From an uncultured Fibrobacterota bacterium (GTDB lineage Bacteria; Fibrobacterota; Fibrobacteria; Fibrobacterales; Fibrobacteraceae): 56,118 bases of DNA. Shown here piece by piece: positions 4,911 through 50,270 of this stretch. The translations under genes and the position numbers were made by a program. The stretch lies in the NCBI GenBank assembly GCA_903876665.1, contig CAIRAY010000013.1:1-56118 (forward strand), read 5' to 3'. The notes under the pieces are model-generated. The model did no database searches. It saw nothing but the letters and a program-made list of their open reading frames with translations, and was not told where the DNA came from. Position 1 is the stretch's first letter. Every line of letters starts with the position of its first letter.

Positions 4911-5160
4911 AGTGGAACAGAGAAGAGTGCAAAGTGGAAAGTGAACAGCCTGCATCTCTGCACGACACCCTAGTGGAAAACGGAAAATGGCGGGCGAATT
5001 TCCCTGAAAGAGAATACATTTCGCAATTTTCCACTTAATAGTGACCGTTCCGCCCAGGCGGAATACGGGAACTTATACACCCCTGTGTATTCCGTTACCA
5101 ACCTATCCCGTGACCCGTGTTTTAACTTTCCATTTGTATCCCAGTTCCCTGCACTTTCCG
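4911..5160. repeat. Dispersed AGTGGAAAGT inverted-repeat element, copy A
   Basis: This fills most of the 381-bp gap between the cadherin gene and the GH9 gene. A 99-nt core (4937-5035) begins GAAAGTGAACAGCCTGC and ends TTTTCCACT; it matches copy B at 26458-26556 in 96 of 99 positions by eye. A second block shared with copy B (from GACCCGTG at 5112 to CAGTTCC near 5148) lies about 75 bp downstream. The stretch between the blocks carries small hairpins (CCGCC/GGCGG, TACAC/GTGTA). The remainder (5160-5283) shows no gene or clear terminator. Confidence 0.8.
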
Positions 5161-5289
5161 CTTTTCACTCCGGAACTTATGGACTGTGTGTACCGGAACT
5201 TCGGACCCCATAGGTTAGATGCATATTCCGTATACGAAGATGTGAATCCATTCATTGACCGGAGTCATCCTTGGAATTAGTTTAAGGAC

Positions 5290-7353
5290 ATGAAAAATAT
5301 ATGTTCGCCCTTGGTGTTGCTTGCGATTTCCCTGGGGTTTTCTGCCAATGTTTATGTCGACCAGGTCGGGTACGACAAGGATTTTTCCAAAAAGGCCATT
5401 GTGGAAGGGCAAGCTTCCATGGCGGGCTCCACCTTCCTAGTGAAGCAAAACGGAACGATGGTTTTTAGCGGAACACTTAGCACTGCGCAGTCTTTGAGTG
5501 ACTGGTCCAGTCAGCCCTATTTCATTGCGGATTTCAGTGCATTGACCACTGCGGGAACCTATACCCTTGAAGTTACGGAAAATGGTTCCACTAAAGCATC
5601 CCGTTCTTTTGCGGTGGGTGCGAATGTAATTACCGATGCCACCTTGTCCAAATTGATGGACTATTTTTTGGCGGACCGTGCCGATCGCTCCGATGTATGG
5701 GCAAAAGATGTCGCCATTGTAAAGTATGGTGATTATTCTGGCAAGACTTACAATGTCCGGGGTGGCTGGTACGATGCCGCAGGCGATGTGAGCAAGTATT
5801 TAAGCCACTTGTCCTACGCAAATTACCTGAATCCCCAGCAGACTCCCATGACGGTGTGGACTCTGGCCTTTGCCAAAGAAAGGATCCCCGCGCTTTTGGG
5901 GTCCAAGGGCTTGACGAGTGCGGTACAGCAGGAAGCGCTCTGGGGTGCGGACTTCCTTTTGCGCATGTTGGATGCGGATGGCTATTTCTACACCACCGTT
6001 TTTGATGGCTGGACTGGGTTTATGGCGGATCGCCAAATCTGTTCCTTTACGGGTTCTGCAGGAACGAAAAATGTGAATTACAAGGCAGCCTTTCGGGAAG
6101 GTGGCGGTATGGCCATTGCAGCCCTGGCTCGTGTTTCTGCTTGGGGTAAGGCTGGCGATTCGAGCTCGGCCGCATATTTAACGGGTGCCGAGCGCGCATA
6201 CGCCCATCTGAAGGCCAAGACCGTCAATGGAGTTTGTGAGTATTGCGATGATCAAAAAGAAAATACCATCGACGATTATGCCGCCTTGATGGCTGCCGCA
6301 GAGCTCTATAAGGCAACCAAGAATGTCGCCTATTTGGAAGATGCGCGCACCCGCGCAGGGATGCTGGCAGGACGCATTTCGTCAGAAGGGTTTTTCTACT
6401 CAGATTACGCAGGAACACGTCCCTTCTGGCATGCTGCCGAAGCCGGTCTTCCCCTGGTGGCACTCACCCGCTACATTGAGGTGGAGCATTCCGAGCCCTC
6501 AAATCCTCTGATCAAAACGAATATGGCCAAGCACTTGGCTTATCTGCAATCCGTGACAACAAATGTTGTGAATCCGTTTGGATATGCCCGCCAAACCTTC
6601 AAAACAGGTGGAGTGGTTCAATCGGGCTTCTTTATTCCCCACGACAATGAATCTAACTATTGGTGGCAGGGCGAAAATGCGCGCCTCGCTTCCCTAACTG
6701 CCGCAGCCTTCTATGCCGGCCGGCTTTTGAATTACAGCGCAAGCTCTCCGGGCAAGGTTCCCACCGCAATTGCGAGTTATGGCTATGATCAGCTTCATTG
6801 GATTCTGGGGCGCAATCCCAAGGACATGAGCTTTATGCAAGGTGTGGGTCAGGTATTTGCGCCCGGCTATTCCGGAGCGAGTGGAAAGGCTGGCCATTTG
6901 ACTGGCGGTGTGGTTAACGGCATTACGGGAGTGAGTACCGATGGAACTGGACTAACCTATAAGTCAGGTTCCGATTTCATTTCAGGCAATGAGTGGGAAA
7001 GCTGGCGCTGGACGGAGCAGTGGCTACCCCATTCCACGTGGTTCCTAATGGCCTTGGCGACCATAAGTGACGAATCTCCTTTATTGCCGGTGGGGATTAG
7101 TTCCAAACCGGGAGCCATTGTCAATCGTGATTTAGATTTTCACGCATTCGTTGCAGGAAGTAGCCTGGAGGTGGCTTTTGCTCTGGCTCCAACGCACGCA
7201 GTTGCTTTGCGCCTAGTCGACTTGAAGGGCCAGACCATGGTCTCCCAAACTCTGCAGGCCGGGGTCTCCCGTGTGGTCATTCCCCTGACTGGAGCCATGC
7301 GTGGCGTTCATATCCTTTCCGTAGAGGGCAAGGCCAGCCGGATTATTTTTTAA
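5290..7353 (+). CDS. Secreted GH9 endoglucanase with CelD-type N-terminal Ig domain
   Basis: This 687-residue protein should hydrolyse beta-1,4-glucan by inversion. Residues 1-19 are a signal peptide (MKNICSPLVLLAISLGFSA). A CelD_N-like immunoglobulin domain spans about 20-108 and the (alpha/alpha)6 GH9 catalytic domain about 115-600. The aspartate motif is GGWYDAAGDVSKY (D162, D166), with one more residue between the aspartates than the common DAGD; the acid-glutamate region is SGNEWESWRW (E568/E570). The final ~75 residues (GVSRVVIPL...GVHILSVEG) resemble a type IX sorting tail. A purine-rich AAGGA lies only 1 nt before the ATG, so the start rests on the signal peptide. The 3' end overlaps the convergent metalloprotease gene by 11 bp. 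Substrate preference within GH9 is not readable. Confidence 0.9.
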   Translation: MKNICSPLVLLAISLGFSANVYVDQVGYDKDFSKKAIVEGQASMAGSTFLVKQNGTMVFSGTLSTAQSLSDWSSQPYFIADFSALTTAGTYTLEVTENGSTKASRSFAVGANVITDATLSKLMDYFLADRADRSDVWAKDVAIVKYGDYSGKTYNVRGGWYDAAGDVSKYLSHLSYANYLNPQQTPMTVWTLAFAKERIPALLGSKGLTSAVQQEALWGADFLLRMLDADGYFYTTVFDGWTGFMADRQICSFTGSAGTKNVNYKAAFREGGGMAIAALARVSAWGKAGDSSSAAYLTGAERAYAHLKAKTVNGVCEYCDDQKENTIDDYAALMAAAELYKATKNVAYLEDARTRAGMLAGRISSEGFFYSDYAGTRPFWHAAEAGLPLVALTRYIEVEHSEPSNPLIKTNMAKHLAYLQSVTTNVVNPFGYARQTFKTGGVVQSGFFIPHDNESNYWWQGENARLASLTAAAFYAGRLLNYSASSPGKVPTAIASYGYDQLHWILGRNPKDMSFMQGVGQVFAPGYSGASGKAGHLTGGVVNGITGVSTDGTGLTYKSGSDFISGNEWESWRWTEQWLPHSTWFLMALATISDESPLLPVGISSKPGAIVNRDLDFHAFVAGSSLEVAFALAPTHAVALRLVDLKGQTMVSQTLQAGVSRVVIPLTGAMRGVHILSVEGKASRIIF

Positions 7354-8356
7354 AAAGCCAGGGTAGCCAGCGGGTTCTCGAAATTGCGGCAATCCAGGCG
7401 ATTAGCGGAGTCAACAAAGCAAAAATCAGGAACACGATGGCCACCCGCTCCAGGGAGGTATTTACAAATTCCTCCGCAATGCGACTGAAATCCATCCAAT
7501 GGCCACCTCCTTTGGCTTCTTCATAGAGGTACCGGTGTTCTTCGCTGGTCAGCAATCGATAAGCGAACCGGGCGCTGTGCAACCACATGATGCTTCCCAC
7601 CAAGCTGTATACAAAGCGCTCTCCTGTAGCGACAATCGAAACTCCGGCGATGGCCCGATAAATAAAGACTCCCATGATCAATAATTCCATTCCGTGGCCC
7701 GCAGCTAGGCCTACAATCTCATGAACCATCAGAAAGGCCGTTGCTAATTGCAGGATCATGAAGCCTGCGGCGAGTTTCTGCAGACGCGAATAATTGCGCA
7801 GGTACCAAACGCCCAGGCCTTCGACCAGCATAAGACCCCAAAACACCTGCAGGCTTCGCTCCTGGTGCATGGTGACGCCGCCACCATAATTGAAATCGAA
7901 TGCGGGGATGCTGGGGTAGCCGTAGAGCCAGTAGGCAAAGGCGTGACCCATTTCGTGGACCGGAACCAGGATGAAGGAGAATCCGTATTCGAGCATAGGG
8001 AAAAACAAAAATATGATCAACCCCGCAAAGATTCCTCCCACCAAGGAGGGCCAAGCGGGACCCTTGGCAACCGGAGTCATCAGAAGTATGTCCTCATGGT
8101 CCTCGGGCTCCTCCGGAAGTGTCTGTGGTTCGGAATCAGAGTTCTCCTGGATGCATGTTCCCCCCATGGATACCAGTAGCCGTCGCGCCTCGATGAGCTG
8201 CATTCCGCTTAAATGTCCGAGTGGAATGGGCGTGTCTTTCTGAATGTGGGACTTGACCTGTTCCGGGGTCCATTGGAGGGAAATCGCAAGTAGTGCCAGG
8301 CGGGAATCTGCGTGTGATTCTTTGGGGAGCCGAAAAAGAAGTGGACTAGTTGTCAT
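7343..8356 (-). CDS. Membrane-embedded HExxH protein, M50-like metalloprotease
   Basis: This 337-residue integral membrane protein carries VPVHEMGHAFAYW, a zinc-type HExxH (H134, E135, H138) at the end of the first hydrophobic segment (about 104-131), followed by several more membrane segments. That arrangement resembles M50-type intramembrane proteases or related putative Zn peptidases. The N-terminal ~70 residues are soluble and look like a small helical module (LAISLQWTPEQVKSHIQK...IEARRLLVSMGG) reminiscent of ribosomal protein L7/L12 C-terminal-like adaptors; that comparison is tentative. An acidic linker (PEEPEDHEDI) joins the halves. The third metal ligand expected in M50 is not obvious, so activity is unproven. 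It ends 11 bp inside the convergent GH9 gene. Confidence 0.6.
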   Translation of the reverse strand: MTTSPLLFRLPKESHADSRLALLAISLQWTPEQVKSHIQKDTPIPLGHLSGMQLIEARRLLVSMGGTCIQENSDSEPQTLPEEPEDHEDILLMTPVAKGPAWPSLVGGIFAGLIIFLFFPMLEYGFSFILVPVHEMGHAFAYWLYGYPSIPAFDFNYGGGVTMHQERSLQVFWGLMLVEGLGVWYLRNYSRLQKLAAGFMILQLATAFLMVHEIVGLAAGHGMELLIMGVFIYRAIAGVSIVATGERFVYSLVGSIMWLHSARFAYRLLTSEEHRYLYEEAKGGGHWMDFSRIAEEFVNTSLERVAIVFLIFALLTPLIAWIAAISRTRWLPWLFKK

Positions 8357-8393
8357 GTCCCAAATCTATACTGGCTAGGGGCGGAACGGAGGG

Positions 8394-9674: not shown

Positions 9675-9715
9675 GAAAGAACTAAGATAAAGTAATCGTT
9701 GAAAAATGCAAGAGT

Positions 9716-10327
9716 TTAGAGAAGAAAAAGGCTTAGCAGACCGGCGCGGTGTTGTTCCCGTCCTCCTTGCAAAAAGCCAAGACGGCCGTACTCGAAAAGA
9801 TGGTACGCCATGGTTACAAAGGTGACTGAAAGTTCCATGGGATCTTTACCCTTCACGCTTGCGTTGGCAATTCCTTCTGCAAAAAAAGGTGCGAAGGATG
9901 CGTGGAATTGCTTAACATAGGTCAGCATGGGACTTTCTGCGTAACGTGCTTTGCTGATCTGTTCCTCGAAATAATCCAGGACCCCCACAAGGCCTGCTTC
10001 GGACTCCAGCGAAAGAAGGGTGAGGTCTACCAGCTGGGAAAAGCGCTCCGGAAAAGGGCGGGAAATGTCGTTCAGGATCGGATCTGCTTGTTCCAGGAAG
10101 TGCTGCCGGTAAGTATCCACCACCACCCAGATCAATTCGTCGCGGTTAGAGAAATAATTGTAAAGGGAGCCTTTGCTTAGGCCCGAAAGGCTCGCCACTT
10201 CGTCCATGGAAAGGTTAACGACTCCCTTTTGGGCGATGAGTTGCGCGCAGGCCTGCAGGATTTCAATGCGAACCTGTTGTCGCAGCTGTTCTCTGCGGGC
10301 TTCTTTGCGCTCAATGGATGTTGGCAT
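9716..10327 (-). CDS. TetR family transcriptional regulator
   Basis: This 203-residue protein has the N-terminal TetR helix-turn-helix (about residues 20-62: ILQACAQLIAQKGV, MDEVASLSGLSKGSLYNYF). The C-terminal ligand-binding helical domain is unassigned. It starts 9 bp after the fabH stop on the same strand, so it is probably the last gene of a fapR-fabH-tetR operon and may respond to a lipid or acyl-CoA signal. That role is inferred from position only. Confidence 0.85.
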   Translation of the reverse strand: MPTSIERKEARREQLRQQVRIEILQACAQLIAQKGVVNLSMDEVASLSGLSKGSLYNYFSNRDELIWVVVDTYRQHFLEQADPILNDISRPFPERFSQLVDLTLLSLESEAGLVGVLDYFEEQISKARYAESPMLTYVKQFHASFAPFFAEGIANASVKGKDPMELSVTFVTMAYHLFEYGRLGFLQGGREQHRAGLLSLFLL

Positions 10328-10336
10328 TCGAGTGGG

Positions 10337-11889: not shown

Positions 11890-11900
11890 AGATAACGCGT

Positions 11901-11930: not shown

Positions 11931-12008
11931 TGGGAAAATCCAGGAAAGGCAAAAGAGAGTTGGATTTTCTTAAATTTCCCTCAGAATTCTCATTTTCTGG
12001 AATTTCCA

Positions 12009-12563: not shown

Positions 12564-12564
12564 A

Positions 12565-12685
12565 GGGACTCGTCGCAATCGGAACAGGTCGTCGTCACCT
12601 GTCCCAGTGGGGGCTTTACGCTTACTTTCAAGTAGGAAGAATTCCCTTATAAAATCAGGGAATAATCGACCTGTTTGCGAAATTT
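12565..12685 (+). ncRNA. Candidate structured RNA or leader before the propionate operon
   Basis: Two incompatible foldings are readable. Locally, GGAACAGGT (12581-12589) pairs with ACCTGTCCC (12597-12605) around loop CGTCGTC, with one mismatch. Alternatively AACAGGTCG (12583-12591) pairs with CGACCTGTT (12667-12675), extended by TCGCA/TGCGA (12573-12577 with 12676-12680). Inside, ATTCCCT/AGGGAAT (12641-12647, 12657-12663) forms a further hairpin. Strong upstream promoter, long-range closing stem and switching geometry suggest an independent small RNA or a regulatory leader. A possible second promoter (TTGCGA 12675-12680, TATATT 12700-12705) lies at its 3' end, favouring a separate RNA. I could not match it to tmRNA, SRP, RNase P, 6S or a named riboswitch. 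Confidence 0.35.
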
Positions 12686-12746
12686 CCAAATAGAAATCCT
12701 ATATTTCCGCCGAGTCATTCATCCATTCTTTTCGGCGCTTTGGCAC

Positions 12747-14249
12747 ATGAACGCAACACTAAAATCCCTCGTCTCCACTCCCCAGGCCCTCGCAGCTCTC
12801 ATCAAAAACGGCGAAGTCATTGGGGTCTCCGGCTTTACTCCCTCGGGCTATCCCAAGGTGATTCCAACCGCCCTGGCCGAACGGGGAAAAGCCCTCAAGG
12901 CTGACGGCGTCGATTTCGGAATTTCTTTGTATACTGGCGCATCCGTTGGTGATGAATGCGATGGAGCCCTCGCCCGCGCAGGCATCATGAAGGTTCGCAT
13001 GCCTTACCAGTCCAACAAGGACTTGCGTAACGGCATCAACAACGGGACCATCCAATATTTCGACCAGCATCTTTCCCACATGGCCAAGCTTGTGCGTCAA
13101 GGCTCGGTTCCTCGTCCAACCACTGCGATCATCGAAGCGGTTGACGTCGAAGTCCATGGCGACAAGGCCCGCGTGTTCCTCGCCGGTTCCGGTGGCTGTT
13201 CCGCAACTTACATGCTGGTTGCCGACCGCATCTTTATCGAACTGAATTCCCATTACGGATTGGCCCTGAAGGGCTTTCACGATATCTACATCCCCGAGTC
13301 CCAGCCATTTGTAGATGTGATTCCTCTGAAATCACCTTCCGACCGCATCGGCAAGCCCTATGTGGAAGTGGCACTTTCCAAGATTCAAGGTATCGTCGAA
13401 ACGAACATGCCTGACAAAATGGGCGGTTTCGAACCCGTGGATGCCGAGTCCGCAGCCATTGCGGCCCACATTCTGGACTTCTTGGCTTTTGAGCGCAAGC
13501 ATGGCCGCCTTCCCGAGGGCCTGCCATACCAGTCCGGTGTGGGCAACGTGGCAAACGCCGTGCTTGCCGCCATGGCCAAGGATCCCAACCAAAAGCCATT
13601 GTCCCTCTACACCGAGGTGATTCAAGACTCCGTTTTCGAAATCATCGAAAATGACAAGCTGATCATTGCTTCCGGCGCCTCGCTTACTTTCTCGATCGCT
13701 GGCCAGCAGAAGTTCAAGGACAACATTGAAAAATGGCGTGACAAGTTCGTGATCCGCCAACAAGAGATTTCCAACAACCCCGAGCTGGTCCGTCGCCTCG
13801 GGACCATTTCCATGAATACCGCCATCGAGATGGATATTTTCGGCAATGTGAATTCCACGCACATCATGGGCACCCAGATGATGAATGGAATCGGGGGCTC
13901 CGGCGACTTTGCCCGTAACGCCTACCTTCCCATTTTCATGACCTCCTCCACCGCGAAAGACCGGGCCATCAGCTGCATCGTTCCCATGGTCAGCCATACG
14001 GATCACCATGAGCACTCCACCCAGATTTTCGTGACCGAACGCGGTCTCTGCGATCTGCGTGGTCTGGCTCCAGTGCCACGCGCCCGCAAGGTTATCGAAA
14101 TTTGTGCCCATCCCGACTACCAGCCTCTCCTCACCGAGTACCTGGACTATGGTCTCAAGAATGCCAAGGGCAAGCATACTCCGCATACCCTGTCCCGCGC
14201 CTTCGAATTCCACACGCGCTTCTTGGAAACAGGAACGATGAAACTTTAA
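12747..14249 (+). CDS. scpC: Propionyl-CoA:succinate CoA-transferase
   Basis: This family I CoA-transferase moves CoA from propionyl-CoA to succinate, releasing propionate and regenerating succinyl-CoA. It is 500 residues long. The catalytic glutamate lies in YTEVIQDSV (E290 from this start) and the family signature GIGGSGDFARNAY occurs near 385-397. The frame extends upstream to 12675, but the ATG at 12747 (MNATLKSLVSTPQ) gives the normal family N-terminus. The following genes encode the rest of the methylmalonyl-CoA route, favouring propionyl-CoA:succinate over acetyl-CoA:succinate transfer; succinyl-CoA:acetate transfer remains an alternative. Cytoplasmic; no clear ribosome-binding site. 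Confidence 0.85.
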   Translation: MNATLKSLVSTPQALAALIKNGEVIGVSGFTPSGYPKVIPTALAERGKALKADGVDFGISLYTGASVGDECDGALARAGIMKVRMPYQSNKDLRNGINNGTIQYFDQHLSHMAKLVRQGSVPRPTTAIIEAVDVEVHGDKARVFLAGSGGCSATYMLVADRIFIELNSHYGLALKGFHDIYIPESQPFVDVIPLKSPSDRIGKPYVEVALSKIQGIVETNMPDKMGGFEPVDAESAAIAAHILDFLAFERKHGRLPEGLPYQSGVGNVANAVLAAMAKDPNQKPLSLYTEVIQDSVFEIIENDKLIIASGASLTFSIAGQQKFKDNIEKWRDKFVIRQQEISNNPELVRRLGTISMNTAIEMDIFGNVNSTHIMGTQMMNGIGGSGDFARNAYLPIFMTSSTAKDRAISCIVPMVSHTDHHEHSTQIFVTERGLCDLRGLAPVPRARKVIEICAHPDYQPLLTEYLDYGLKNAKGKHTPHTLSRAFEFHTRFLETGTMKL

Positions 14250-14255
14250 AAGACA

Positions 14256-14360
14256 AGTGGAGAGTTCTAGAGTTTGATAGTGGAAAGTTGCCACAAGCAT
14301 CTCTTTATAAAAGGCCGCTTGAAGCAGTTTTCCACTTTAAAACTTTCCACTTTAAAACTT
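14256..14360. repeat. Dispersed AGTGGAAAGT inverted-repeat element, variant E
   Basis: Left modules AGTGGAGAGT (14256) and AGTGGAAAGTTG (14279-14290) face right modules TTTTCCACTTT (14328) and AACTTTCCACTTT (14341). It occupies the scpC-mce gap within the propionate operon, so any processing or pausing in it would affect the stoichiometry of the operon. The centre is unrelated to the core of copies A to C. Confidence 0.6.
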
Positions 14361-14373
14361 AAAAGGATTTTAC

Positions 14374-14781
14374 ATGCTTAAAAAAATCGACCATATCGGA
14401 ATTGCCGTTGCTTCCATCGAAGAAGCCCGCAAATACTACGAAGGCGTCCTTGGCCTCAAGCTTGACCGCATCGAAGATGTTCCTTCGCAGAAGGTGAAGA
14501 CCGCATTCTTTGATATTGGTGGAGTGTGGCTCGAGTTGCTTGAGCCCACCGCTGAAGATTCCCCTGTGGGAAAATTCCTGGCGGACCGGCCAGCCGGTGG
14601 CATTCATCATCTCGCCTTCCTCTCGGACGATGTGGCACAAGAACTAAATGCAGCAAAAGAAAAGGGCGTGCGGCTGGTGGATGAAGTTCCCCGCGCTGGT
14701 GCCGGAAAGATGGACATCGGATTCTTACATCCAAAGTTCACAGCAGGTGTTTTGACCGAGTTTTGCACCCCCCAGAAATAA
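14374..14781 (+). CDS. mce: Methylmalonyl-CoA epimerase
   Basis: This 135-residue glyoxalase-fold (VOC) enzyme interconverts the (R)- and (S)-methylmalonyl-CoA epimers between mutase and decarboxylase. Metal-ligand positions are visible: H7 in KIDHIGIAV, the glutamate of VWLELLEP, the histidines of GGIHHLAF and a terminal glutamate in LTEFC. The ribosome-binding site AAAAGGA lies 6 nt before the ATG. mmdA starts 14 bp downstream, and scpC lies upstream across the repeat element. Confidence 0.94.
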   Translation: MLKKIDHIGIAVASIEEARKYYEGVLGLKLDRIEDVPSQKVKTAFFDIGGVWLELLEPTAEDSPVGKFLADRPAGGIHHLAFLSDDVAQELNAAKEKGVRLVDEVPRAGAGKMDIGFLHPKFTAGVLTEFCTPQK

Positions 14782-14795
14782 GTTAAGGAGCAATT

Positions 14796-24245: not shown

Positions 24246-24366
24246 AGTGAAAAGTGAAAAGTTTAAAGTGGAAAGTCGGGGGGAATCGTTCTGGGTCATT
24301 CTCGCGACCCTAGGATTGTGATAGAATAGGTGCAAACTCTACACTTTTCACTTTACACTTTTCACT
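24246..24366. repeat. Dispersed inverted-repeat element, variant D
   Basis: Left arm from AGTGAAAAGTGAAAAGT (24246) and right arm ending CTTTACACTTTTCACT (24366) are inverted repeats of 26 bp with about 22 matches; the outer 11 bp are perfect. The ~69-bp centre (24272-24340) is unrelated to copies A to C. It lies between the nhaD terminator and queA. Confidence 0.6.
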
Positions 24367-24413: not shown

Positions 24414-25463
24414 GTGTCCATCTCTTACAATCTCTCCGACTATGACTTTGAATTTCCGCCTGCGTTGATTGCGCAGAGGACGGCGGGCAAGGGTCGTACC
24501 CGGATTTTGCATGTTCCGAAAGATGGGAGTGCTTCACGTTTAATGCCCGCTGTGCAGATCGTGGATTTGTTCCGCGCTGGGGATTGCCTGGTGGTCAACA
24601 ACACCAAAGTAATTCCCGCCCGCCTGTTCGGATACAAGAAGTCCGGTGGCGCAGCAGAGGTTCTGCTGATTCAGGCGCTACCCGCCAGTGAGCTGAACGA
24701 AGCACGCTGGGAAGCCTTTGTGCGCCCAGGCCGCTCGTTTCGCATCGGTTCCGTTCTGGAGATTGCCGGAGTGGAGTGTGCGGTGGAATCCGTGAAAGAA
24801 GATGGTTCCCGGATTTTGCGCTTTGGGGTAAGCCCAGAAAAGTTTCAGGATGTACTGGAAACCAAGGGCCATGTTCCCTTGCCTCCCTACATTGAGCGGG
24901 AAGACGATGAGTCGGATCGGCTAGCCTACCAAACCGTCTTTGCTAAACACGCAGGCGCGGTCGCTGCGCCCACGGCAAGCCTTCATTTTTCGGAAGAAAT
25001 GCTGGAAGCCCTGCGCGCCAAAGGCGTGCACATTGCCGAAGTGACTTTGCATGTGGGTCCGGGAACCTTTCAAAATATTCAGGTCCAGGATTTCCGGGAA
25101 CATCGGATGCATGGGGAGCGTTTTGTCCTCGACGCAGAATCTGCAAATACGATCAACCAGTGCAAGGCTGCTGGTGGGCGAATCATCACCGTGGGAACCA
25201 CCAGTACCCGGGTGCTGGAAACCGTGGCGACGGATTCCGGCGTGTTGTGTGCAAGTACGGGAGAGACGCGCGCTTTCATTTATCCAGGCGTGAAATTCAA
25301 AATAGTCGACGGCATGCTCACCAATTTTCACTGGCCTCGCTCGTCCCTGATCCTTCTGGTTTCGGCCATGCTGGGGCGGGAACGGACTCTTGAGGCCTAC
25401 CGTTTTGCCGTGCAGGCGGAGCTACAGCTGTTTTCCTATGGCGATGGGATGCTGATTTTATAA
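24414..25463 (+). CDS. queA: S-adenosylmethionine:tRNA ribosyltransferase-isomerase
   Basis: QueA transfers the ribosyl moiety of SAM to preQ1-modified tRNA to form epoxyqueuosine at the wobble position. The 349 residues match family length, with the N-terminal LSDYDFEFPPALIAQ, the DCLVVNNTKVIPARLFG block, TASLHFSEEMLEALRAKG and the C-terminal TNFHWPRSSLILLVSAMLG. The start is GTG at 24414; no in-frame ATG restores the conserved N-terminus. The other queuosine genes are not in the window. Confidence 0.95.
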   Translation: MSISYNLSDYDFEFPPALIAQRTAGKGRTRILHVPKDGSASRLMPAVQIVDLFRAGDCLVVNNTKVIPARLFGYKKSGGAAEVLLIQALPASELNEARWEAFVRPGRSFRIGSVLEIAGVECAVESVKEDGSRILRFGVSPEKFQDVLETKGHVPLPPYIEREDDESDRLAYQTVFAKHAGAVAAPTASLHFSEEMLEALRAKGVHIAEVTLHVGPGTFQNIQVQDFREHRMHGERFVLDAESANTINQCKAAGGRIITVGTTSTRVLETVATDSGVLCASTGETRAFIYPGVKFKIVDGMLTNFHWPRSSLILLVSAMLGRERTLEAYRFAVQAELQLFSYGDGMLIL

Positions 25464-25589: not shown

Positions 25590-26432
25590 GTGCGTCTCTC
25601 CTTCGTTCGGTCTCTCCTTCTTCTTTCCATTTTTTGGATTGCTTCCGCCTCGGCTTCGGCTGGGTCGGAATGGCTTGCGCGTGGAGACCTCTACTACGCA
25701 CAACGTGCAGTTGGGGCCCATGCAGACCGCGCGGACCGGGTCCGGACCCTCAATGCCGTGAATGCCTATCGGCTAGCCATGGCGGACCAGGCTGTTCAGA
25801 AGGTTGCCGCAGTGCGCCTTTTGCGGGCTCTCTATTTCCAGGGGTGCTTTGCCTATATAGATGGCAATGACCGTTTGCGTTCTTTTTCGGAGGCAAAATC
25901 CGTTGGCGAGCAAATGGTCTCTAAGTACCCCAATGACCCGGATTTAGCTTATTGGTACACGGTGAATTTGTCTTTGTGGGCTAAAGAAAGTGGCCCCATT
26001 GCGGCTGTGCGTTCAGGAGTGGCAGAAACCATCCGCAAAGTGACGGAATCTGCGGCAGTGTCCAATCGGAGCGCCCGTGCAAACCCGGCTTTGGCCGGGG
26101 TCTACCAGGTTCTGGGACGCATGCACCACCTTTTGCCACGCATTCCCTTTCTTTTGCCTTGGCCAGACAAAACCCTGGCAGAAAAATACCTGGCCCTCGC
26201 GACTCGTCTCGATCCGGCCAACTTGTCGAATCCATTGTTCCTAGCGGAATTTTACCGCGACCAGGGACGCTTCGAAGATGCCCGCCGAGTCATTGTTCCT
26301 TTCAAGAATAGTTTGCCCCGGCAGGGCCAGGAGATGGAAGACCGTCGCAACATCTGGAAGCTTCGGGATCTGGAAGCCAGCCTCCGCTTGACGGGTGATC
26401 CGGAGCGCGTCGCCATGGCGGATGTGAAGTAG
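25590..26432 (+). CDS. Secreted TPR-like protein of unknown function
   Basis: This 280-residue protein starts at GTG with a signal peptide (MRLSFVRSLLLLSIFWIASASASA). The remainder is alpha-helical with TPR-like helical pairs, clearest near the end (ADPANLSNPLFLAEFYRDQGRFEDARRV type spacing around residues 205-235). The segment ARANPALAGVYQVLGRMHHLLPRIPFLLPWPD recalls TRAP-associated extracytoplasmic T-component proteins, but this is tentative. It stands alone between queA and a repeat element. Periplasmic scaffold or binding role is an inference. Confidence 0.6.
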   Translation: MRLSFVRSLLLLSIFWIASASASAGSEWLARGDLYYAQRAVGAHADRADRVRTLNAVNAYRLAMADQAVQKVAAVRLLRALYFQGCFAYIDGNDRLRSFSEAKSVGEQMVSKYPNDPDLAYWYTVNLSLWAKESGPIAAVRSGVAETIRKVTESAAVSNRSARANPALAGVYQVLGRMHHLLPRIPFLLPWPDKTLAEKYLALATRLDPANLSNPLFLAEFYRDQGRFEDARRVIVPFKNSLPRQGQEMEDRRNIWKLRDLEASLRLTGDPERVAMADVK

Positions 26433-26435
26433 GGA

Positions 26436-26640
26436 AGAGAGTTGAAAGTGGAAAGTTGAAAGTGAACAGCCTGCATCTCTGCACGACACCCTAGTGGAAA
26501 ACGGAAAGTTGCGGGCGAATTTCCCTGAAAGAGAATACATTTCGCAACTTTCCACTTTCCACTAACCAAGCTCTCCTGCGACCCGTGCTGTTAACTTTCC
26601 ACTTGTATTCCAGTTCCACAACTTTCCACTTGTATCTCCC
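26436..26640. repeat. Dispersed AGTGGAAAGT inverted-repeat element, copy B
   Basis: The 99-nt core (26458-26556) differs from copy A at three positions by eye. It is bounded by a perfect 12-bp inverted repeat: AGTGGAAAGTTG (26447-26458) and CAACTTTCCACT (26545-26556). The downstream block GACCCGTG...CAGTTCC shared with copy A lies at about 26579-26617, followed by another CAACTTTCCACTTGTAT. It sits between convergently transcribed genes. Confidence 0.85.
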
Positions 26641-26654
26641 CTTCCGCACCCATC

Positions 26655-31307: not shown

Positions 31308-31343
31308 CCTGCAGGGCAAACGCATTAAAAATCACCCTGCAGG
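31308..31343. repeat. 9-bp inverted repeat at transposase 3' end
   Basis: CCTGCAGGG (31308-31316) and CCCTGCAGG (31335-31343) flank an 18-nt spacer and include the transposase stop codon. It could form a transcript hairpin or be part of an element end; I found no matching sequence at the other side of the cassette. Confidence 0.4.
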
Positions 31344-32459
31344 CTCAACCATGGTCATGATGGATTGATGCCAAAATTGCTGGTTGTGGGTACATGCAAG
31401 GCGCTTCCTTCTCATGCTCATGTTCTTTTTTCGGGGATTGGGATGCTCGCTGTGTTTCAGCTGGTTCAGTGCGATCCTGTTCAGCAACGAGAAGTTTTGG
31501 GCTGCGTTTTTTACGCTTTTCAAGCTTGCATCCTCCCCGAACGTGACGTCCAGTTGCCAATGAAGCTTGTTCTCTACACCCCAATGCTCCCGTACCGCGT
31601 CATTGATTTTTGCTGCATCAGGCGGCAATGATGATATGTAGTACCTCGTGTCCTGAGTCTTCTGGCCGGTTTTCTTCATGAAACGCGTCGACTCGATCCT
31701 GACGAGCGTCCTGAGTCCCGGCCATTGCTTGGCATCTTCGATGCATCTCAAGTCCGACTGCACGAAGCAGACGCGCGTTTCCACCCGTCCGTGCCCCGAA
31801 TCGATTTTGGTATCGGTCGCCTCAGATCCCAGATGGCCAAAGGATTCTTCTATTTGCTCAAGCAGACGCCCCTGGTTGCCTTTGGTGGAAAGCAGGTAGT
31901 CTGCCCCCCGCTCCCGGATTTTCTCCGCGATTCCTTTCTGACATCCCATGGCATCGATCGTCACAATGCAGCCTTTCAGAATGAGCATGGAAAGGAGCTC
32001 CGGAATCGCCTTGATTTCGTTGGTCTTTTCGTTCACCTTGACCTGGCCAAGCACCATCCCGTTTTTGCTGGCCCACGCACTCACCATATGGACCAGTGGC
32101 TTGGCGCCACCTTCTCCGGAACCCCGCAGGCTCTTGCCGTCGATGGCGACCACCTCGCCTTCGGTGAGTTTGACAACCTCCTGCGTCCAGCGCAAGAAGC
32201 GTTCCTCCATCTGCTTGGGGTCGAGAAGGGAAAATACCCTGTTGAACGTGTCGTGCGACGGGATCCCGTTCTTCAGGCCAAGCAACCCGGTGAGCCAGTC
32301 CTCGAAGACCTCGCAGGTATCCTCAACGTCATCCCAGCTTGTGGCCCCTCCCATGACCGCGATCAGCGCAAGGGAGATCACGTGGCTCAGCTCATGCAGG
32401 CGCTTCCTTTTCATCCGCGGGTCGGGCATGTCGGAAAAATGTCTGATGGGGCCGATCAT
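31332..32459 (-). CDS. ISAs1 family transposase
   Basis: This 375-residue DDE transposase appears full length for the family. An N-terminal DDE_Tnp_1-associated region (FSDMPDPRMKRKRLHELSHV) precedes the catalytic core with D107 (VVAIDGKSLRG), D169 (VTIDAMGCQK) and E296 in HWGVENKLHWQLDV. Its ATG overlaps the stop of the upstream AbrB-like gene by 4 nt. Terminal inverted repeats and target duplications were not identified by eye, so the element borders are unknown. The catalytic residues are intact, so it could be active. Confidence 0.92.
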   Translation of the reverse strand: MIGPIRHFSDMPDPRMKRKRLHELSHVISLALIAVMGGATSWDDVEDTCEVFEDWLTGLLGLKNGIPSHDTFNRVFSLLDPKQMEERFLRWTQEVVKLTEGEVVAIDGKSLRGSGEGGAKPLVHMVSAWASKNGMVLGQVKVNEKTNEIKAIPELLSMLILKGCIVTIDAMGCQKGIAEKIRERGADYLLSTKGNQGRLLEQIEESFGHLGSEATDTKIDSGHGRVETRVCFVQSDLRCIEDAKQWPGLRTLVRIESTRFMKKTGQKTQDTRYYISSLPPDAAKINDAVREHWGVENKLHWQLDVTFGEDASLKSVKNAAQNFSLLNRIALNQLKHSEHPNPRKKNMSMRRKRLACTHNQQFWHQSIMTMVEPAG

Positions 32460-32698
32460 GGCTTCCTTCTTTGCTTCTTAAGCTTTGCCTTCGGATCCGC
32501 ATCGGTGCGCGTGCGCTCTTCAAGCTTGTTCGTACTGCCCGTGCGCCGCAATACCAGGGTCTTTTTGTCCTCGATGGTCCATTCGACCACCTCGCCTTTC
32601 TCGAAGTCGAGCGCCTTGGCCAAGGCTCCAGGAAAGTTCACATACCACTGGTTGCCCTTGTCGCGGGCGATGAGCTGGATCGTCGTCGGGTATCCCAT
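32456..32698 (-). CDS. AbrB/MazE-like DNA-binding protein coupled to transposase
   Basis: This 80-residue protein resembles a swapped-hairpin AbrB domain (~1-52: TTIQLIARDKGNQWYVNFP, ALDFEKGEVVEWTIED) with a basic C-terminal tail (KAKLKKQRRKP). The ribosome-binding site AGGAG lies 6 nt before the ATG. The 4-nt overlap with the transposase implies coupled expression. A perfect 30-bp palindrome lies 9 bp upstream, a plausible self-operator. Inferred role: repressor controlling transposase expression; no toxin gene is present beside it. Confidence 0.75.
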   Translation of the reverse strand: MGYPTTIQLIARDKGNQWYVNFPGALAKALDFEKGEVVEWTIEDKKTLVLRRTGSTNKLEERTRTDADPKAKLKKQRRKP

Positions 32699-32707
32699 TT
32701 TTAACTC

Positions 32708-32737
32708 CTATAATCTATGGATATCCATAGATTATAG
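32708..32737 (-). promoter_or_regulatory. Perfect 30-bp palindromic operator of the AbrB-transposase pair
   Basis: The half-site CTATAATCTATGGAT is followed immediately by its exact reverse complement. Read on the minus strand it contains TATAAT suited to a -10 box, so a bound protein would block the promoter. The end of the palindrome also merges with the AGGAG ribosome-binding site, so in RNA form the hairpin could hide it. Confidence 0.65.
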
Positions 32738-32750
32738 AAAAATTCAACAC

Positions 32751-32779
32751 AAAAAAGAAGGCTCCGCGTTCGCGGAGCC
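32751..32779 (-). terminator. Terminator of the Ton-system operon
   Basis: On the minus strand the stem GGCTCCGC / GCGGAGCC (32760-32779) with loop GAAC is followed by TTCTTTTTT (32759-32751). It lies about 30 bp after the TPR gene stop and separates the long Ton operon from the transposase cassette. Confidence 0.85.
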
Positions 32780-32809
32780 CATAAATAGCGTCTGCTGGCT
32801 ATTAAGATT

Positions 32810-33880
32810 TTAATGCGTTTGCCCTAGCATTTCCTGGTAGTTCTCCACTTCGCTCTTCAGAGAATAATCGTTGGGAGCAAAACGCTGGGCGGTTTTTAGA
32901 TAGGCGATGCTTTGGTTTAACAATTTACGTTGTTCAAATTCATAGGCCAAGTTGCGCAGGCCTTGAATGGCTTCGGCGTTACCATTCTCGCCCGCCTTGA
33001 CATAAGCCTGTTCTGCCCGATCCCACCATTTCGATTCGAAGGCCAGGTTGCCCAGGAAGATGGCTGCGTCAGAAAACTTGGGATTGATCAAAAGAGCTTT
33101 CTCCAGATAGTCCATGGCGAGGAAGGGGTTACCGTCTTCAGATGTGATATCGGCCATTTTATAGAGGAGTTCGGTGTTTTCAGGTTGGAGTGCCAAGGCT
33201 TCGCGCCAGGCGTTGCTTGCGTCCTGAAGGCGGTTGGAAGTGCGAAAAATATCTCCAAGATAAACAAGGAAATCTATTTCCTGAGGATTGCGGGAGTAGC
33301 CCTCGCGAATGAGGTTGGCCGCCCGGTCCACTTCATCCATGCCCAGAAGGACTTCAGAAAGCTGGTAGATGAGACTTGGATCGTCGGGATCGAGTCTACG
33401 GGCATTCTCTAGGGCGCGTTGAGTTCCCACTTGGTCGCCGGTTCGTATATAGGCTTCAGCCAGGTATAGCCAGGCAGAGGTATTGTCAGGATCGAGACGC
33501 AGCGCACGGTGGTAGGCCGCGATGCTTTCCGGGAAAGCGCCTAGTCGGTAAAGGACGGCGGCCAGGTTGAAAAGCGCGGGAGAAAATTCTCCCTTGGACC
33601 AATTTACTGCCTTGCGGTAGGCTCCCGCAGCCTCGGAAAACTGATCCAATTGGTAGAGGCAGTTGGCGGTGTTGAAGGCGCTGGCGACAGGGTCTGCGCC
33701 CCGGTCCTCGGCTTTGCGGTACAGGAGCACCGCTTGGGCAAATTTACCCGAAGCGTAGAGGGCATTGGCGCGGTCCATGAGGGCAAGGCCGGCTTGGGTT
33801 GAGCGGTTCTGCGGAGTACCTGCCGGGGCTGCAAAAAGCAAGGCCGGAAGGAATGCAAAAATGAGGAGAAATTTGCTCAT
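32810..33880 (-). CDS. Periplasmic TPR protein of TonB2-type system
   Basis: The frame extends upstream to 33979, but the ATG at 33880 has an AGGAA-type ribosome-binding site and gives a signal peptide (MSKFLLIFAFLPALLFAAPA). The rest of the 356 residues is a string of about eight TPR units (e.g. ANALYASGKFAQAVLLYRKA, NCLYQLDQFSEAAGAYRKAV). A TPR gene closes the TtpC/TonB2 clusters of other Gram-negative bacteria, and this one closes the operon here just before its terminator. Confidence 0.85.
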   Translation of the reverse strand: MSKFLLIFAFLPALLFAAPAGTPQNRSTQAGLALMDRANALYASGKFAQAVLLYRKAEDRGADPVASAFNTANCLYQLDQFSEAAGAYRKAVNWSKGEFSPALFNLAAVLYRLGAFPESIAAYHRALRLDPDNTSAWLYLAEAYIRTGDQVGTQRALENARRLDPDDPSLIYQLSEVLLGMDEVDRAANLIREGYSRNPQEIDFLVYLGDIFRTSNRLQDASNAWREALALQPENTELLYKMADITSEDGNPFLAMDYLEKALLINPKFSDAAIFLGNLAFESKWWDRAEQAYVKAGENGNAEAIQGLRNLAYEFEQRKLLNQSIAYLKTAQRFAPNDYSLKSEVENYQEMLGQTH

Positions 33881-44524: not shown

Positions 44525-44596
44525 CTTCTGATCCTACCAAAGGTAAAGGAATTTGTCCAGCAAAGGAGCCGGAAAAGAATATGTGGCTTTTGGGGG

Positions 44597-45255: not shown

Positions 45256-45270
45256 ATTCTTCAGACTTTA

Positions 45271-45347
45271 GTCACCCTCGCGCAGTCGAGGGTCTTGGAT
45301 GAATGGTCACAACCGTTCCGACAGATCCTCGTCTGCGCGAGGATGAC
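45271..45347. repeat. Pair of GTCAYCC palindromic repeats, inverted
   Basis: Copy 1 (45271-45294) reads GTCACCCTCG-CGCAGT-CGAGGGTC; copy 2 (45324-45347) is the reverse-strand version with ATCCTCG/CGAGGAT arms. Each forms a 7-bp hairpin ending in GTCA. They lie upstream of tsaE and the fibro-slime gene, which diverge. Confidence 0.75.
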
Positions 45348-45481
45348 CATGGATTAACGCCAAAATTTTGGGAACTCGATGTCCGCTTCGCAAAGCATCT
45401 TAATGTCTCTGCTCTCTAAATATACCCTGTATCGGGGGGCACTTCAAATGGTTTTAATTACCTTTACCGGCAGGAGAAATC

Positions 45482-47605: not shown

Positions 47606-47616
47606 ATGTCATGAAT

Positions 47617-48456
47617 CTACAATAGGACCGGAGCCAAGTCTTCGGTCATGTTTTCGATCAAATCCATTTCGGGATGATGCGTCATGGCTTGAGGGGATCC
47701 GGAAATGCCCGTGAACTGCAAAGTGGCGTCATCGCCTTTCCAATGCAAAAGCGCTTCGCCTCCGCACACTCGGCAATACAGGGTTTCTCCTTCCCGGGAA
47801 TTGCTGGGAATTACAATGGTGGGCCCGCATTTGGGGCAAGTCAATAAAGGGATCCCATCTTCCGAATGGCCCACGATATGGGTGAGGTAGCCCTTATGGC
47901 CCAGCTCCAGGAATTGGTTGGCCAGGTCGTGGTCAAATTGGGTTCCGGCATTCATCTGGATGATTTCAAGAGCCTTTTGAATCGACATGCCCTGTCGATA
48001 GGACCGGGTGCTGGTCATGGCGTCAAAGGCGTCGCATATACCCACAACCCTGGAAACCCAGGGGATTTCTAGGCCTTCGAGTCCTTGGGGGTAACCCCGG
48101 CCCGAGGGCATTTCGTGGTGCCCAATCACCGCATCCAGGGCAAAGGAGGCTAGGGGATGGCGCTGGAGCATGCGTGCCCCTACTGCCGGGTGGGTCTTTA
48201 TAATTTCATACTCGCCTTCGGTGAGCTTTCCTGGTTTTCCCAAAACATTGTCGGGGAGGGAAATTTTACCAATGTCGTGAATAAAGCCACCGAGCTCGGC
48301 CAAGGCCTGCTGTTGCCGGGTGGCTTGGCTTGCAGAGCCAAGAAGCCTTGCATATTGGGACACGCGCCACAGGTGACCCCCGGTATAGGGATCCCGGGCC
48401 TCCACAAAGGAAGCCATGACTAGGAGCGATTTGATGATTTGGCCATTTTCCGTCAT
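47617..48456 (-). CDS. HD-GYP phosphodiesterase-like protein with zinc ribbon
   Basis: This 279-residue protein has an HD-GYP domain (~5-185) with HDIGK (H60, D61), GHHEMPSGRGYPQGL (H113, H114; GYP at 121-123) and GICDAFDAMTSTRSYR. HD-GYP enzymes degrade cyclic di-GMP. A C-terminal zinc ribbon follows (C207, C210 in CPKCG; C228, C231 in CRVCGG), which is uncommon after HD-GYP as far as I recall. A diguanylate cyclase gene lies 6 kb away, so c-di-GMP signalling is plausible. Confidence 0.87.
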   Translation of the reverse strand: MTENGQIIKSLLVMASFVEARDPYTGGHLWRVSQYARLLGSASQATRQQQALAELGGFIHDIGKISLPDNVLGKPGKLTEGEYEIIKTHPAVGARMLQRHPLASFALDAVIGHHEMPSGRGYPQGLEGLEIPWVSRVVGICDAFDAMTSTRSYRQGMSIQKALEIIQMNAGTQFDHDLANQFLELGHKGYLTHIVGHSEDGIPLLTCPKCGPTIVIPSNSREGETLYCRVCGGEALLHWKGDDATLQFTGISGSPQAMTHHPEMDLIENMTEDLAPVLL

Positions 48457-48521
48457 ATAGGGATTATAACCTTTGTGATGGGAAATGTCGAGGAAGGGGT
48501 TTTGGGGTCGGCCTTCGATCC

Positions 48522-48697
48522 GTCACCCTGGCCCCAAAAGGGGGTGGGCTCGTAATGCTGTCGTCACCCTCGCGCCGGCGAGGGTCCTGGAGCTAGACCC
48601 TCGCCTACGCGAGGGTGACGAAATCCCGCATGGATGGGATCATGGTAGATCCCCGTCTGCGCGGGGATGACCGGGATGTTGCCTGCGCGAGGGTGAC
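48522..48697. repeat. Cluster of GTCAYCC palindromic repeats
   Basis: Three full copies (48563-48586 plus; 48596-48619 minus; 48648-48671 minus), a half copy (48680-48697) and a diverged copy (about 48522-48548) of the same ~24-nt hairpin family as at 45271. Arms vary together (CCCTCG/CGAGGG, CCCCG/CGGGG), which preserves pairing. They fill the serS to HD-GYP gap. Confidence 0.75.
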
Positions 48698-48710
48698 GAT
48701 TGGGCCCCGC

Positions 48711-49991
48711 TTAAGCCTGGGGTGCTTCGATCCGCTCGAGGCCACCCATGTAGGGGCGTAGAACTTCTGGAATGACGAGCGAGCCGTCCGCCTGCTGGTA
48801 ATGATCGCAGATCGCCACCATGACGCGGGGGGTCGCTAGACCGGAGCCGTTCAGGGTGTGGACCAGTGCGTTCTTTCCGTTGATTTTGGACTTGATCCCG
48901 GCCCGGCGGGCTTGGAAATCCTCGAAGTTCGACACGGAGCTCACTTCCAGCCAGCGTTTTTCTACCGGTGCCCAGACTTCGAGATCGTAGCACTTGGAGG
49001 CTCCGAAGCCCATGTCGCCCTTGCAAAGCAGGATGGTACGGAAGTGCAGGCCCAGCATTTTCAGGAGTTCTTCGGAATAGCTGACGATCTGTTCGTGGTC
49101 GTCGTAGCTCTTGTCGGGGTGTGAGAAATACACCATCTCGACCTTGTTGAACTGGTGCAGGCGCAAGAGTCCACGGGTGTCCTTGCCGTAGCTGCCGGCT
49201 TCGCGACGGAAGCAGGCGGAATAGGCGCACAGCTTGAGGGGAAGCTTCTCTTCGGGGATGAATTCATCCGCGTACATGTTGGTTAGGGGAACTTCGGCGG
49301 TGGGGATGAGGAACAGGTCATCATCCTTGTCGCAGCGGTACATGTCTTCTTCAAATTTGGGCAATTGGCCCGTGCCCTTCATGGAATTGCGGGTAACCAG
49401 GTAGGGAGGAACGATTTCTTCGAATCCCCATTTCTGGGTGTGCTGGTCCAAAAAAAACTGGATCAGGGCGCGCTCGAGGCGGGCACCCAGGCCACGGTAG
49501 ATTGGAAATCCGGAGCCGGAAATTTTGGAGCCACGGTCAAAGTCAAAGATGCCGAGCTTGTCGCCCAGGGTTTTGTGTTCGGTGGGCTCAAAGTCGTGGG
49601 TTTTGGGGGTTCCCCAGGTCCGGACAACCACATTTTCTTCGGGAGTCTTGCCTTCGGGGCAGGTGTGGTGGGGCAGATTGGGGATGTGCAATAGCAAATT
49701 CGTCTGTTCGTCTTCCACTGCGCGGATCTGGGTGTCGAGCTCCGAGATGCGCTCGCCCACTTTGCGCATTTCTTCCATGATGGCCGTGGCGTCTTCGCCC
49801 TTTTTCTTGAGCTCGCCGATCTGCTTGGAAACCGTGTTGCGATTGGACTTGAGGGTCTCCACTTCAGTCATCAGCTTGCGACGCTGGACATCGAGCTCGA
49901 GCACGGAAGAAATGCTGATCTGGGAGTTCTTCTTGGCCGTTTCGGTCTGGTAGAATTCAGGATTTTCGCGGATAAGCTTGATGTCGAGCAT
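48711..49991 (-). CDS. serS: Seryl-tRNA synthetase
   Basis: This class II synthetase charges tRNA-Ser. The open frame begins at 50057, but the ATG at 49991 (MLDIKLIRENPEFYQ) is the family start, giving 426 residues; GAGG lies upstream. The N-terminal coiled-coil arm spans ~30-100. Motif 2 (FRREAGSYGKDTRGLLRLHQF) and motif 3 (the segment GSLVIPEVLRPYMGG) are intact. Confidence 0.97.
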   Translation of the reverse strand: MLDIKLIRENPEFYQTETAKKNSQISISSVLELDVQRRKLMTEVETLKSNRNTVSKQIGELKKKGEDATAIMEEMRKVGERISELDTQIRAVEDEQTNLLLHIPNLPHHTCPEGKTPEENVVVRTWGTPKTHDFEPTEHKTLGDKLGIFDFDRGSKISGSGFPIYRGLGARLERALIQFFLDQHTQKWGFEEIVPPYLVTRNSMKGTGQLPKFEEDMYRCDKDDDLFLIPTAEVPLTNMYADEFIPEEKLPLKLCAYSACFRREAGSYGKDTRGLLRLHQFNKVEMVYFSHPDKSYDDHEQIVSYSEELLKMLGLHFRTILLCKGDMGFGASKCYDLEVWAPVEKRWLEVSSVSNFEDFQARRAGIKSKINGKNALVHTLNGSGLATPRVMVAICDHYQQADGSLVIPEVLRPYMGGLERIEAPQA

Positions 49992-50065
49992 GGAGAACCT
50001 CGTAAATAGGGTAGGGGAAATGTAAAAAAAGAATGATGAGGGGGGATCTCTTTGCACGGTCCTTT

Positions 50066-50270
50066 AGTGGAAAGTGGAAAGTGGAAAGTGGAAAATGGAA
50101 AGTGGAAAGTAAACAGCCCGCGTCCCAGCACGAAACCTTAGTGGAAAACGGAAAGTTTCGACGCTTCTTTTCTAATTCTGGGACAACCTTTTGCAACTCT
50201 CCACTTTCCACTTGTATTTCTCCCCCCGTTCCACAACTTTCCACTTTCAAATTTTCACACTTTCCGTTTG
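50066..50270. repeat. Dispersed AGTGGAAAGT inverted-repeat element, copy C
   Basis: Left side is a short tandem run of GTGGAAA units (50066-50110), then a 101-nt core (50105-50205) with the same start as copies A and B (GAAAGTAAACAGCC...AGTGGAAAACGGAAAGTT) and the same end (GCAACTCTCCACT), but a replaced centre. Further TTTCCACTTGTAT modules run to about 50270. It fills most of the 336-bp gap between divergently transcribed serS and the second receptor; the remainder shows no gene. Confidence 0.78.

Follow-up and report, generated by a model that had tools for sequence, protein, structure and literature searches.

Inverted 7-mer arrays between genes of a Fibrobacterota genome and their probable relationship to PF05635 (23S rRNA-intervening sequence protein) genes

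What are the short inverted-repeat sequences that recur between the genes of a 56,118-nucleotide contig from an uncultured Fibrobacterota bacterium (GCA_903876665.1, CAIRAY010000013.1; the whole stretch is referred to as the window)? An earlier note, made from the letters alone, described five intergenic sites with AGTGGAAAGT/ACTTTCCACT modules and suggested either an element like miniature inverted-repeat transposable elements (MITEs) or repetitive extragenic palindromes (REPs), mobilised in trans, or a family of structured RNA or DNA-binding sites. We report that the family is multicopy and mosaic, lies mostly behind co-directional stop codons and is missing from two junctions in relatives. 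At one locus of the same genome a gene for a small four-helix-bundle protein of PF05635 ("23S rRNA-intervening sequence protein", IVP) lies between arms of the family, and in many phyla IVP genes are commonly bounded by inverted 7-mer arrays. Our data suggest that the window family probably represents IVP-less, MITE-like derivatives of a widespread mobile element, the full form of which would be a PF05635 gene between inverted 7-mer arrays. We refer to derivatives, and not to members with the gene, because no PF05635 gene was seen between the arms of any of the five window copies.

The five window sites and their family in the genome

The window corresponds to contig C13 in an assembly of 192 contigs (4.32 Mb, 92.9% complete), referred to as G000. 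With at most one mismatch allowed, AGTGGAAAGT occurs 33 times in the window compared to 2.85 times (sd 1.58) in shuffled sequences, none of 100 shuffles reaching 33; the five sites, which are thus real, account for 31 of these, and two strays are found at 6880 and 56095. The repeat unit is a 7-mer in tandem, AGTGGAA (variants AGTTGAA and AGTGAAA), with the left and right arrays in opposite orientation. All five copies sit between protein-coding frames:

4910..5169, plus strand: copy A, with 7-mer arm, AACAGCC module, central module and right module, and a second mini-element nested inside
5037..5090, plus strand: the nested second mini-element, AATAGTGACCGTTCCGC...GCGGAATACGGGAACTTATACACCCCTGTGTA, inside copy A (right end set by eye)
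14253..14362, plus strand: copy D, a short, diverged, IVP-less element
24246..24366, orientation undeterminable: copy E, with inverted 7-mer arms of AGTGAAAAGT type and none of the A/B/C core
26431..26642, plus strand: copy B, a full element, from the stop codon of the gene at 25590-26432
50065..50283, plus strand: copy C, a left array of six 7-mers, a different centre, and right modules

Copies A, B and C are full members, D is short and diverged, and E has only the architecture and the 7-mers in common with the others; in a core comparison with A/B/C, a stretch of 38 nt is obtained for D and none for E. D and E do have the architecture that the earlier note ascribed to all five sites, with little or no core. 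Reading the sequence directly we find, as claimed, three differences between A and B in the 99-nt core, and in copy C a different centre between a family-type left array and right modules. The elements are mostly longer than had been given, approximately 110-320 nt.

The earlier note would have been refuted had the core occurred nowhere else in the genome, which is not the case. The 137-nt sequence of copy B has at least 51 genome matches (40 of the 80 first-look candidates were scored), and at least 12 other copies are ≥90% identical to B over ≥99 nt, copies at unrelated loci sharing a non-repetitive core at 90-96%. AGTGGAAAGT is found 180 times in the genome compared to 11 times for its reversed control. 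We collected at least 52 loci, some of them added by hand from pattern matches and those on contigs past C114 taken from B-sequence matches only; one of the 52, C93:50653, is mainly the second mini-element, and seven isolated AGTGGAAAGT places were left out (C34:77819, C43:64673, C51:22963, C55:9717, C76:5786, C76:9888 and C110:8293). The 52 loci (10.2 kb), with a margin of 60 nt, contain 292 near-matches of AGTGGAAAGT, versus 27 in the other 226.5 kb examined. Simple tandem-repeat slippage, giving inverted purine/pyrimidine runs by chance, would account for the differing number of 7-mer units among copies. It accounts neither for the common non-repetitive core at unrelated loci nor for the same 7-mer in inverted order on both arms across IVP loci (see below); in the main these results refute it, and we regard it as barely credible.

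Read side by side, the copies are built as mosaics. The left module consists of 7-mers, AACAGCC and a 21-nt segment, the middle module is one of several exchangeable centres, and the right module resembles the inverse of the left with another 21-nt segment; modules are sometimes doubled. By reading, most family loci carry inverted arrays of the same 7-mer on both sides. At least four contigs (C95, C122, C155 and C176) end within an element. Among 60 related genomes, G000 included, the core beyond the 7-mers was found in G000 only, and five other genomes match the 7-mer part alone (query positions 2-41).

A mosaic of palindromic units in intergenic space is also what REPs, or bacterial interspersed mosaic elements, spread by a RAYT (Y1) transposase would look like. 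No PF01797 match was found in the genome (92.9% complete), although the same search was positive in five of 14 control genomes, and the units are 7-mer arrays as opposed to the 20-40-nt palindromes given for REPs in the part of the source available (PMC3733652). We therefore reject a RAYT/REP origin, which we hold to be very improbable, and the term REP-like is not supported in the RAYT sense.

Neighbouring stop codons and empty junctions

The 5' edge of 35 of the 52 loci lies between -26 and +23 nt from a stop codon in the same direction, compared to 15.6% of intergenic positions (p 8e-17), and at 18 loci, 12 of them also in the 5'-edge list, the 3' edge lies at the stop codon of an oppositely directed frame (p 6e-4). 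In this analysis locus orientation follows a motif rule that is fallible for odd copies, and genes are long frames from a mechanical caller. In the window, copies A, B and D begin at a co-directional stop codon; C and E do not. Copy C lies between divergent genes, so that the position behind stop codons represents a strong tendency and not a law.

Specifically, copy A begins 1 nt past the stop codon of a large open reading frame (ORF) ending at 4908, and the right edge of copy B is approximately 12 nt short of a convergent thioredoxin/TPR gene. Copy C has no preceding stop codon; on one side is the gene 48711-50057 on the minus strand, which by eye resembles serS, and on the other the ORF 50268-52670 on the plus strand. 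Copy D follows an acetyl-CoA hydrolase/transferase gene (12675-14249) and precedes the gene 14374-14781, presumably encoding methylmalonyl-CoA epimerase (MCE), while copy E starts 76 nt behind a stop codon and is upstream of a queuosine synthesis gene (24414-25463).

Empty-site alleles in relatives, which had been proposed as a check, were seen at two junctions. The first lies between genes that we take to be lysS and lolE, the latter being lolC/E-like (these names, like those of the nuo and sdh genes below, are presumed from translated ends) and measures 230 nt in G000. We read 30 lolE loci from G000 and its relatives (44 genomes had a lolE match, and 14 of them yielded no locus); nine loci had no resolved lysS upstream, and 21, including G000, had lysS directly upstream. 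Thirteen of these 21 have gaps of 1-28 nt, five hold IVP elements, two hold IVP-less 7-mer elements (230 nt in G000; 273 nt in G007, by eye), and in G010 an 86-nt gap has neither a 7-mer element nor an IVP gene. The second junction, acyl-CoA transferase/MCE with copy D, is 124 nt long in G000 and 15 nt in G006; an MCE match was present in 11 of 45 genomes, and of the eight loci read besides G000, that of G006 was the only one in which the upstream gene agreed and the gap was clear. For these two compared junctions of the window family, insertion is the simplest reading of the length differences.

The family itself also serves as a target. A second mini-element (AATAGTGACCGTTCCGC....GCGGA.TACGG...), approximately 54 nt long and by eye forming two hairpins, matches at 22 places of the genome, at 20 of these exactly, and is nested in several 7-mer elements. 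Apart from it, the elements that contain it and those that do not are collinear by eye, so that the 7-mer family is an empty/filled target in its own right. The hairpin tip varies among copies of this mini-element (CCCAGG, CTTCAG and CTGTGG).

MITEs are short, gene-less, multicopy elements with inverted ends that are moved in trans. The window family resembles them in all of size, absence of genes, inverted ends and copy number, and in having empty-site alleles; it differs in that we found no transposase as parent, no fixed terminal repeat and no target duplication. Could the copies then be ordinary MITEs of an insertion sequence with a DDE transposase, with terminal repeats as transposase sites and the IVP gene as a chance passenger at one locus? 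A DDE transposase gene is present in the window, and the arms of the IVP locus in G000 are short. The insertion sequence of the window has other 18-bp terminal repeats (AGGGCAAACGCATTAAAA), which differ from the family ends, and is rejected as parent (other transposases of the genome were not searched). Moreover, the number of 7-mers at the ends varies, no target duplication is seen by eye, and a chance passenger leaves the 7-mer arms of IVP genes in many phyla unexplained. We consider ordinary MITEs an unlikely explanation. As to the MITE-like, gene-less, trans-mobilised element of the earlier note, the copy number, the lack of genes in the window and the empty sites agree with it; the essential feature, a PF05635 gene between family arms, lies elsewhere in the genome and thus beyond what that note could see.

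IVP genes between inverted 7-mer arrays

At C38:6290-6752 of G000, a gene of approximately 300 nt lies between short 7-mer arms of the window family. It matches PF05635 with 83 bits (cut-off 33.8, E 4.6e-23), and its right flank is 97% identical over 36 nt to the IVP-less lysS/lolE copy. G000 has three PF05635 matches, at C16, C38 and C191, and none on the window contig; among the 60 related genomes 29 have a match, in 28 above the cut-off (the weak ones include G016). PF05635 proteins have solved relatives (2gsc and 2rld). Another 7-mer dialect, GGGGTTA/GGGAATA, is also present in G000: an IVP gene of this dialect lies at C16 (L337), and a second-dialect array at C35:2933-2960 (L333) is by eye close behind a stop codon.

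Are such arms a general property of IVP genes? The best 80 of 582 confirmed IVP loci across phyla were all scored for an inverted match between their two flanks. The median score is 35.5 compared to 18 in 147 controls shifted by 950 nt (maximum 30), and flanks paired across different loci (400 pairs) give a median of 17 and a 99th centile of 33, which we used as strict threshold. It is exceeded by 43 of the 80 loci and by none of the 147 shifted controls. In the 43 passing loci identity at lag 7 is 0.553, versus 0.24-0.32 at other lags, and 7 is the best lag in 36. By record titles they belong to Cyanobacteria, Pseudomonadota, Bacteroidota, Acidobacteriota, Planctomycetota, Chloroflexota and Bacillota; the single archaeal assembly, L136 (Methanophagales), also shows a 7-mer array but with a score of 29 falls short of the threshold. 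Within Fibrobacterota, 17 of 21 loci that were aligned and scored, out of 30 inspected, lie above all 40 controls. IVP matches were also obtained in 41 of 72,556 records in a plasmid search.

Each IVP locus has its own 7-mer, which differs between lineages and matches between the two arms. A clear 7-mer is present in 62 of the 80 loci, with the loose consensus G[GT]G[AG]N[TC]A, to which the window 7-mer, written as GTGGAAA, fits at six of seven positions; in L188 and L199 the arms are GGGACCG arrays. The 5' arm is mostly purine-rich (median 0.675), with a content of ≥0.6 in 54 of 70 loci and <0.5 in five, compared to ≥0.6 in 17 of 70 controls. With the IVP gene taken as forward and frames called mechanically, the upstream neighbour within 400 nt is co-directional in 63 of 68 cases and both neighbours in 48 of 58. 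Recurrent junctions are nuoC/nuoD in Rhizobiales, sdhA/sdhB in Bacteroidota and lysS/lolE in Fibrobacter. A general 7-mer pattern gave 1103 matches versus 368 for the reversed control, being above the control in 36 of 60 genomes, below in eight and equal in 16, and barely above it in G000 (13 versus 11). The excess is larger in genomes with IVP genes (median 8 versus 1, p 0.0045); because the reversed control is itself a 7-mer, we treat this count as supporting only.

The nuoC/nuoD junction was followed in 60 genomes of the genus of L138. Resolved junctions number 45, and the remaining 15 either had no nuoC pattern (eight) or had a nuoC end and no recognised nuoD start (seven); two of these seven, L317 and L318, open with GGCAATA-type arrays. 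Short junctions of 64-78 nt without an IVP gene account for 23 of the 45. A further 21 hold an IVP gene in three dialects, GGCAATA (8), GTGAGTA (5) and GCGAATA (8, mixed with GTGAGTA units), with both arms of an element sharing the dialect by eye. In the last one, L300, the two arms enclose an IVP gene with an internal deletion, which is the expected intermediate toward an IVP-less element. The nuoC stop codon lies within or at the edge of the array. Because the short junctions contain sequence that is absent from the filled ones, the two kinds do not form clean before/after pairs. In L289 and L308 the short junction retains the right arm, and nothing else, of an element of the GGCAATA dialect, apparently the trace of a lost element.

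In a tree of the IVP proteins (without L286, the protein of which was not recovered) each dialect corresponds to one supported clade (0.98-0.99), with identities of 53-55% between and 80-92% within clades. The joint clade of 31 (midpoint-rooted) includes nine other alphaproteobacterial proteins, so that either old residence with a change of the 7-mer or repeated homing may account for the nuoC/nuoD elements.

Mechanism, evidence for and against, and known systems

These observations suggest a mobile unit that would consist of an IVP gene flanked on both sides by inverted 7-mer arrays and would settle between stop and start codons. Insertion there would leave both neighbouring genes intact, and the element could thereby ride within respiratory and other operons. 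The IVP protein is predicted to recognise the 7-mer arrays. The window copies may have arisen through loss of the IVP gene, for which L300, with its arms kept, provides an example that we extend to the window family by inference, and then have multiplied in trans. More tentatively, with confidence somewhat short of even, we propose a class of mobile elements of approximately 500 nt across bacterial phyla and perhaps archaea, annotated as 'four helix bundle protein', which would home to operon stop/start junctions including respiratory ones and change the 7-mer of both arms together. Such elements would shed gene-less copies that explain many inverted heptamer repeats, and would be mobilised by a protein without a known transposase, recombinase or nuclease fold.

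Alternatively, the elements could be cis-acting RNA elements under selection, i.e. terminators or hairpins for processing or for insulating translation, with the arrays as stem or protein-binding sites. This would agree with their location behind stop codons in gene direction and with the predicted RNA folding of four of the five window copies, which is better than that of shuffled sequences (z -4.28 for B, -3.29 for C, -5.69 for D and -4.78 for E; copy A is unremarkable with z -0.96 and 37 of 200 shuffles equally good). Also, all three reading frames are closed in 28 of the 62 left IVP arrays versus 5.7% of shuffled arrays. The same junctions are, however, empty in relatives, near-identical copies lie beside unrelated genes, and no Rfam family, rRNA included, reaches its gathering score anywhere in the window, by which a known RNA family is rejected. 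A stop codon is contained in 37 of the 62 7-mers compared to 30 expected from letter shuffles (p 0.018). This enrichment is weak, and with 25 of the 62 7-mers lacking a stop we regard it as a hint and reject all-frame stops as the reason for the 7-nt unit. Pairing changes between IVP arms (70 of the 80 loci passed the score filter for this count) show no G-U excess, with 74 G-U versus 92 A-C (p 0.19). An RNA hairpin under selection is consequently not supported, and sense-strand RNA pairing is out as the cause of the arm symmetry. In our view cis-acting RNA is an improbable explanation of the family, and the structured RNA suggested earlier retains a small probability.

Several results weigh against an origin of the window family from IVP elements, the absence of a G-U excess among them. 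The two flanks of the C38 gene have an inverted match of only 15 nt with a score of 25, below the strict threshold, and C38 is the only IVP copy found with AGTGGAA arms; it lacks the AACAGCC core common to the IVP-less copies. Given these short arms and the missing core, it is by inference that we assign a direction to the derivation. Furthermore, 37 of the 80 IVP loci lie below the strict threshold, 17 of the 52 family loci have no co-directional stop codon at their start (copy C, between divergent genes, included), and by eye the comparison of G000 with G006 gave no clear target-site duplication and no exact element ends. Protein similarity and 7-mer similarity, the one hint at recognition of the arrays by the IVP protein, are linked only weakly (61 loci, 1830 pairs; rho 0.094 for pairs below 50% identity, p 0.005), a correlation that common descent could also explain. 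Finally, a PF00078 reverse transcriptase match is present in 16 of the 29 IVP genomes and in none of the other 13 (overlap counted by hand), so that a partnership with a reverse transcriptase of the same genome, as for Avd, is not general, and a requirement for reverse transcriptase is rejected.

Avd, an accessory protein of retroelements, enters here since PF05635 has been noted as resembling it (PMC10053308, in the part available). The Avd models NF033474 and PF22296 gave weak matches, below curated cut-offs, for two of three IVP proteins tested, pointing to a distant relationship. Diversity-generating retroelements have a reverse transcriptase beside an Avd-like gene, in contrast to the 13 IVP genomes above. 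In G000, reverse transcriptase matches lie at C191, beside the weak PF05635 match, and at C137, and not at C16 or C38. The region C191:4604-6227, where the weak PF05635 match adjoins the reverse transcriptase, is likely a diversity-generating retroelement with Avd.

How do the elements relate to known systems? In the accessible part of PMC4990558, intervening sequences of 23S rRNA genes with an S23/IVP ORF are described as selfish elements with terminal inverted repeats that form a stem, and with a scattered distribution. Common to both is an S23/IVP protein between inverted repeats. The former reside in rRNA genes and carry the ORF, with reported excision by RNase III, whereas the 7-mer-armed elements lie in gaps between protein genes and have tandem 7-mer arrays as arms, and the window copies have no ORF. 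PF05635 proteins are called functionally uncharacterised in the literature consulted.

Intergenic heptamer arrays have been described in other phyla, as far as the consulted portions of the papers go. The Xanthomonas GGGAATC and Nostoc GGGGA(C/T)T heptamers were treated as G-quadruplex-forming, with inverted pairs numbering 70 in one Xanthomonas genome and 75 in another, and an average position 28 nt behind the 5' ORF and 160 nt from the downstream ORF (PMC4692102). They are like the elements studied here in being intergenic 7-mer arrays with inverted pairs close behind the preceding ORF. The terms 'four helix', '23S' and 'S23' are absent from the main text of that paper, and relative to it the link of heptamer repeats to IVP genes, the dialects and the empty sites are new here. 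In Beggiatoaceae, TAACTGA forms intergenic tandem heptamers in many copies with a proposed role in translational regulation; these are direct repeats with one inverted case, in contrast to the inverted arrays of the window family, and the main text contains none of the terms 'four helix', '23S' and 'intervening' (PMC4679880). In the accessible open-licence literature of PubMed Central we found neither a description of the window family nor a link between IVP genes and heptad arms or operon junctions, an account of which may exist in a subscription journal or preprint. If true, our reading joins the selfish rRNA intervening sequences, the intergenic heptamer repeats of several phyla and orphan genes interrupting nuo and sdh operons, and it offers a testable system, one junction in one genus that occurs empty, filled in three versions and decayed.

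Two other features of the window were observed. The insertion sequence at 31313-32825, presumably ISAs1-like, has perfect terminal repeats and a DDE transposase matching PF13808 and PF01609; within the repeats a small minus-strand ORF (32456-32698) encodes, by eye, an AbrB/MazE-type DNA-binding protein. At approximately 52700-52830, a tandem repeat opens the ORF 52679-53590 and encodes repeated GHDKTI hexapeptides.

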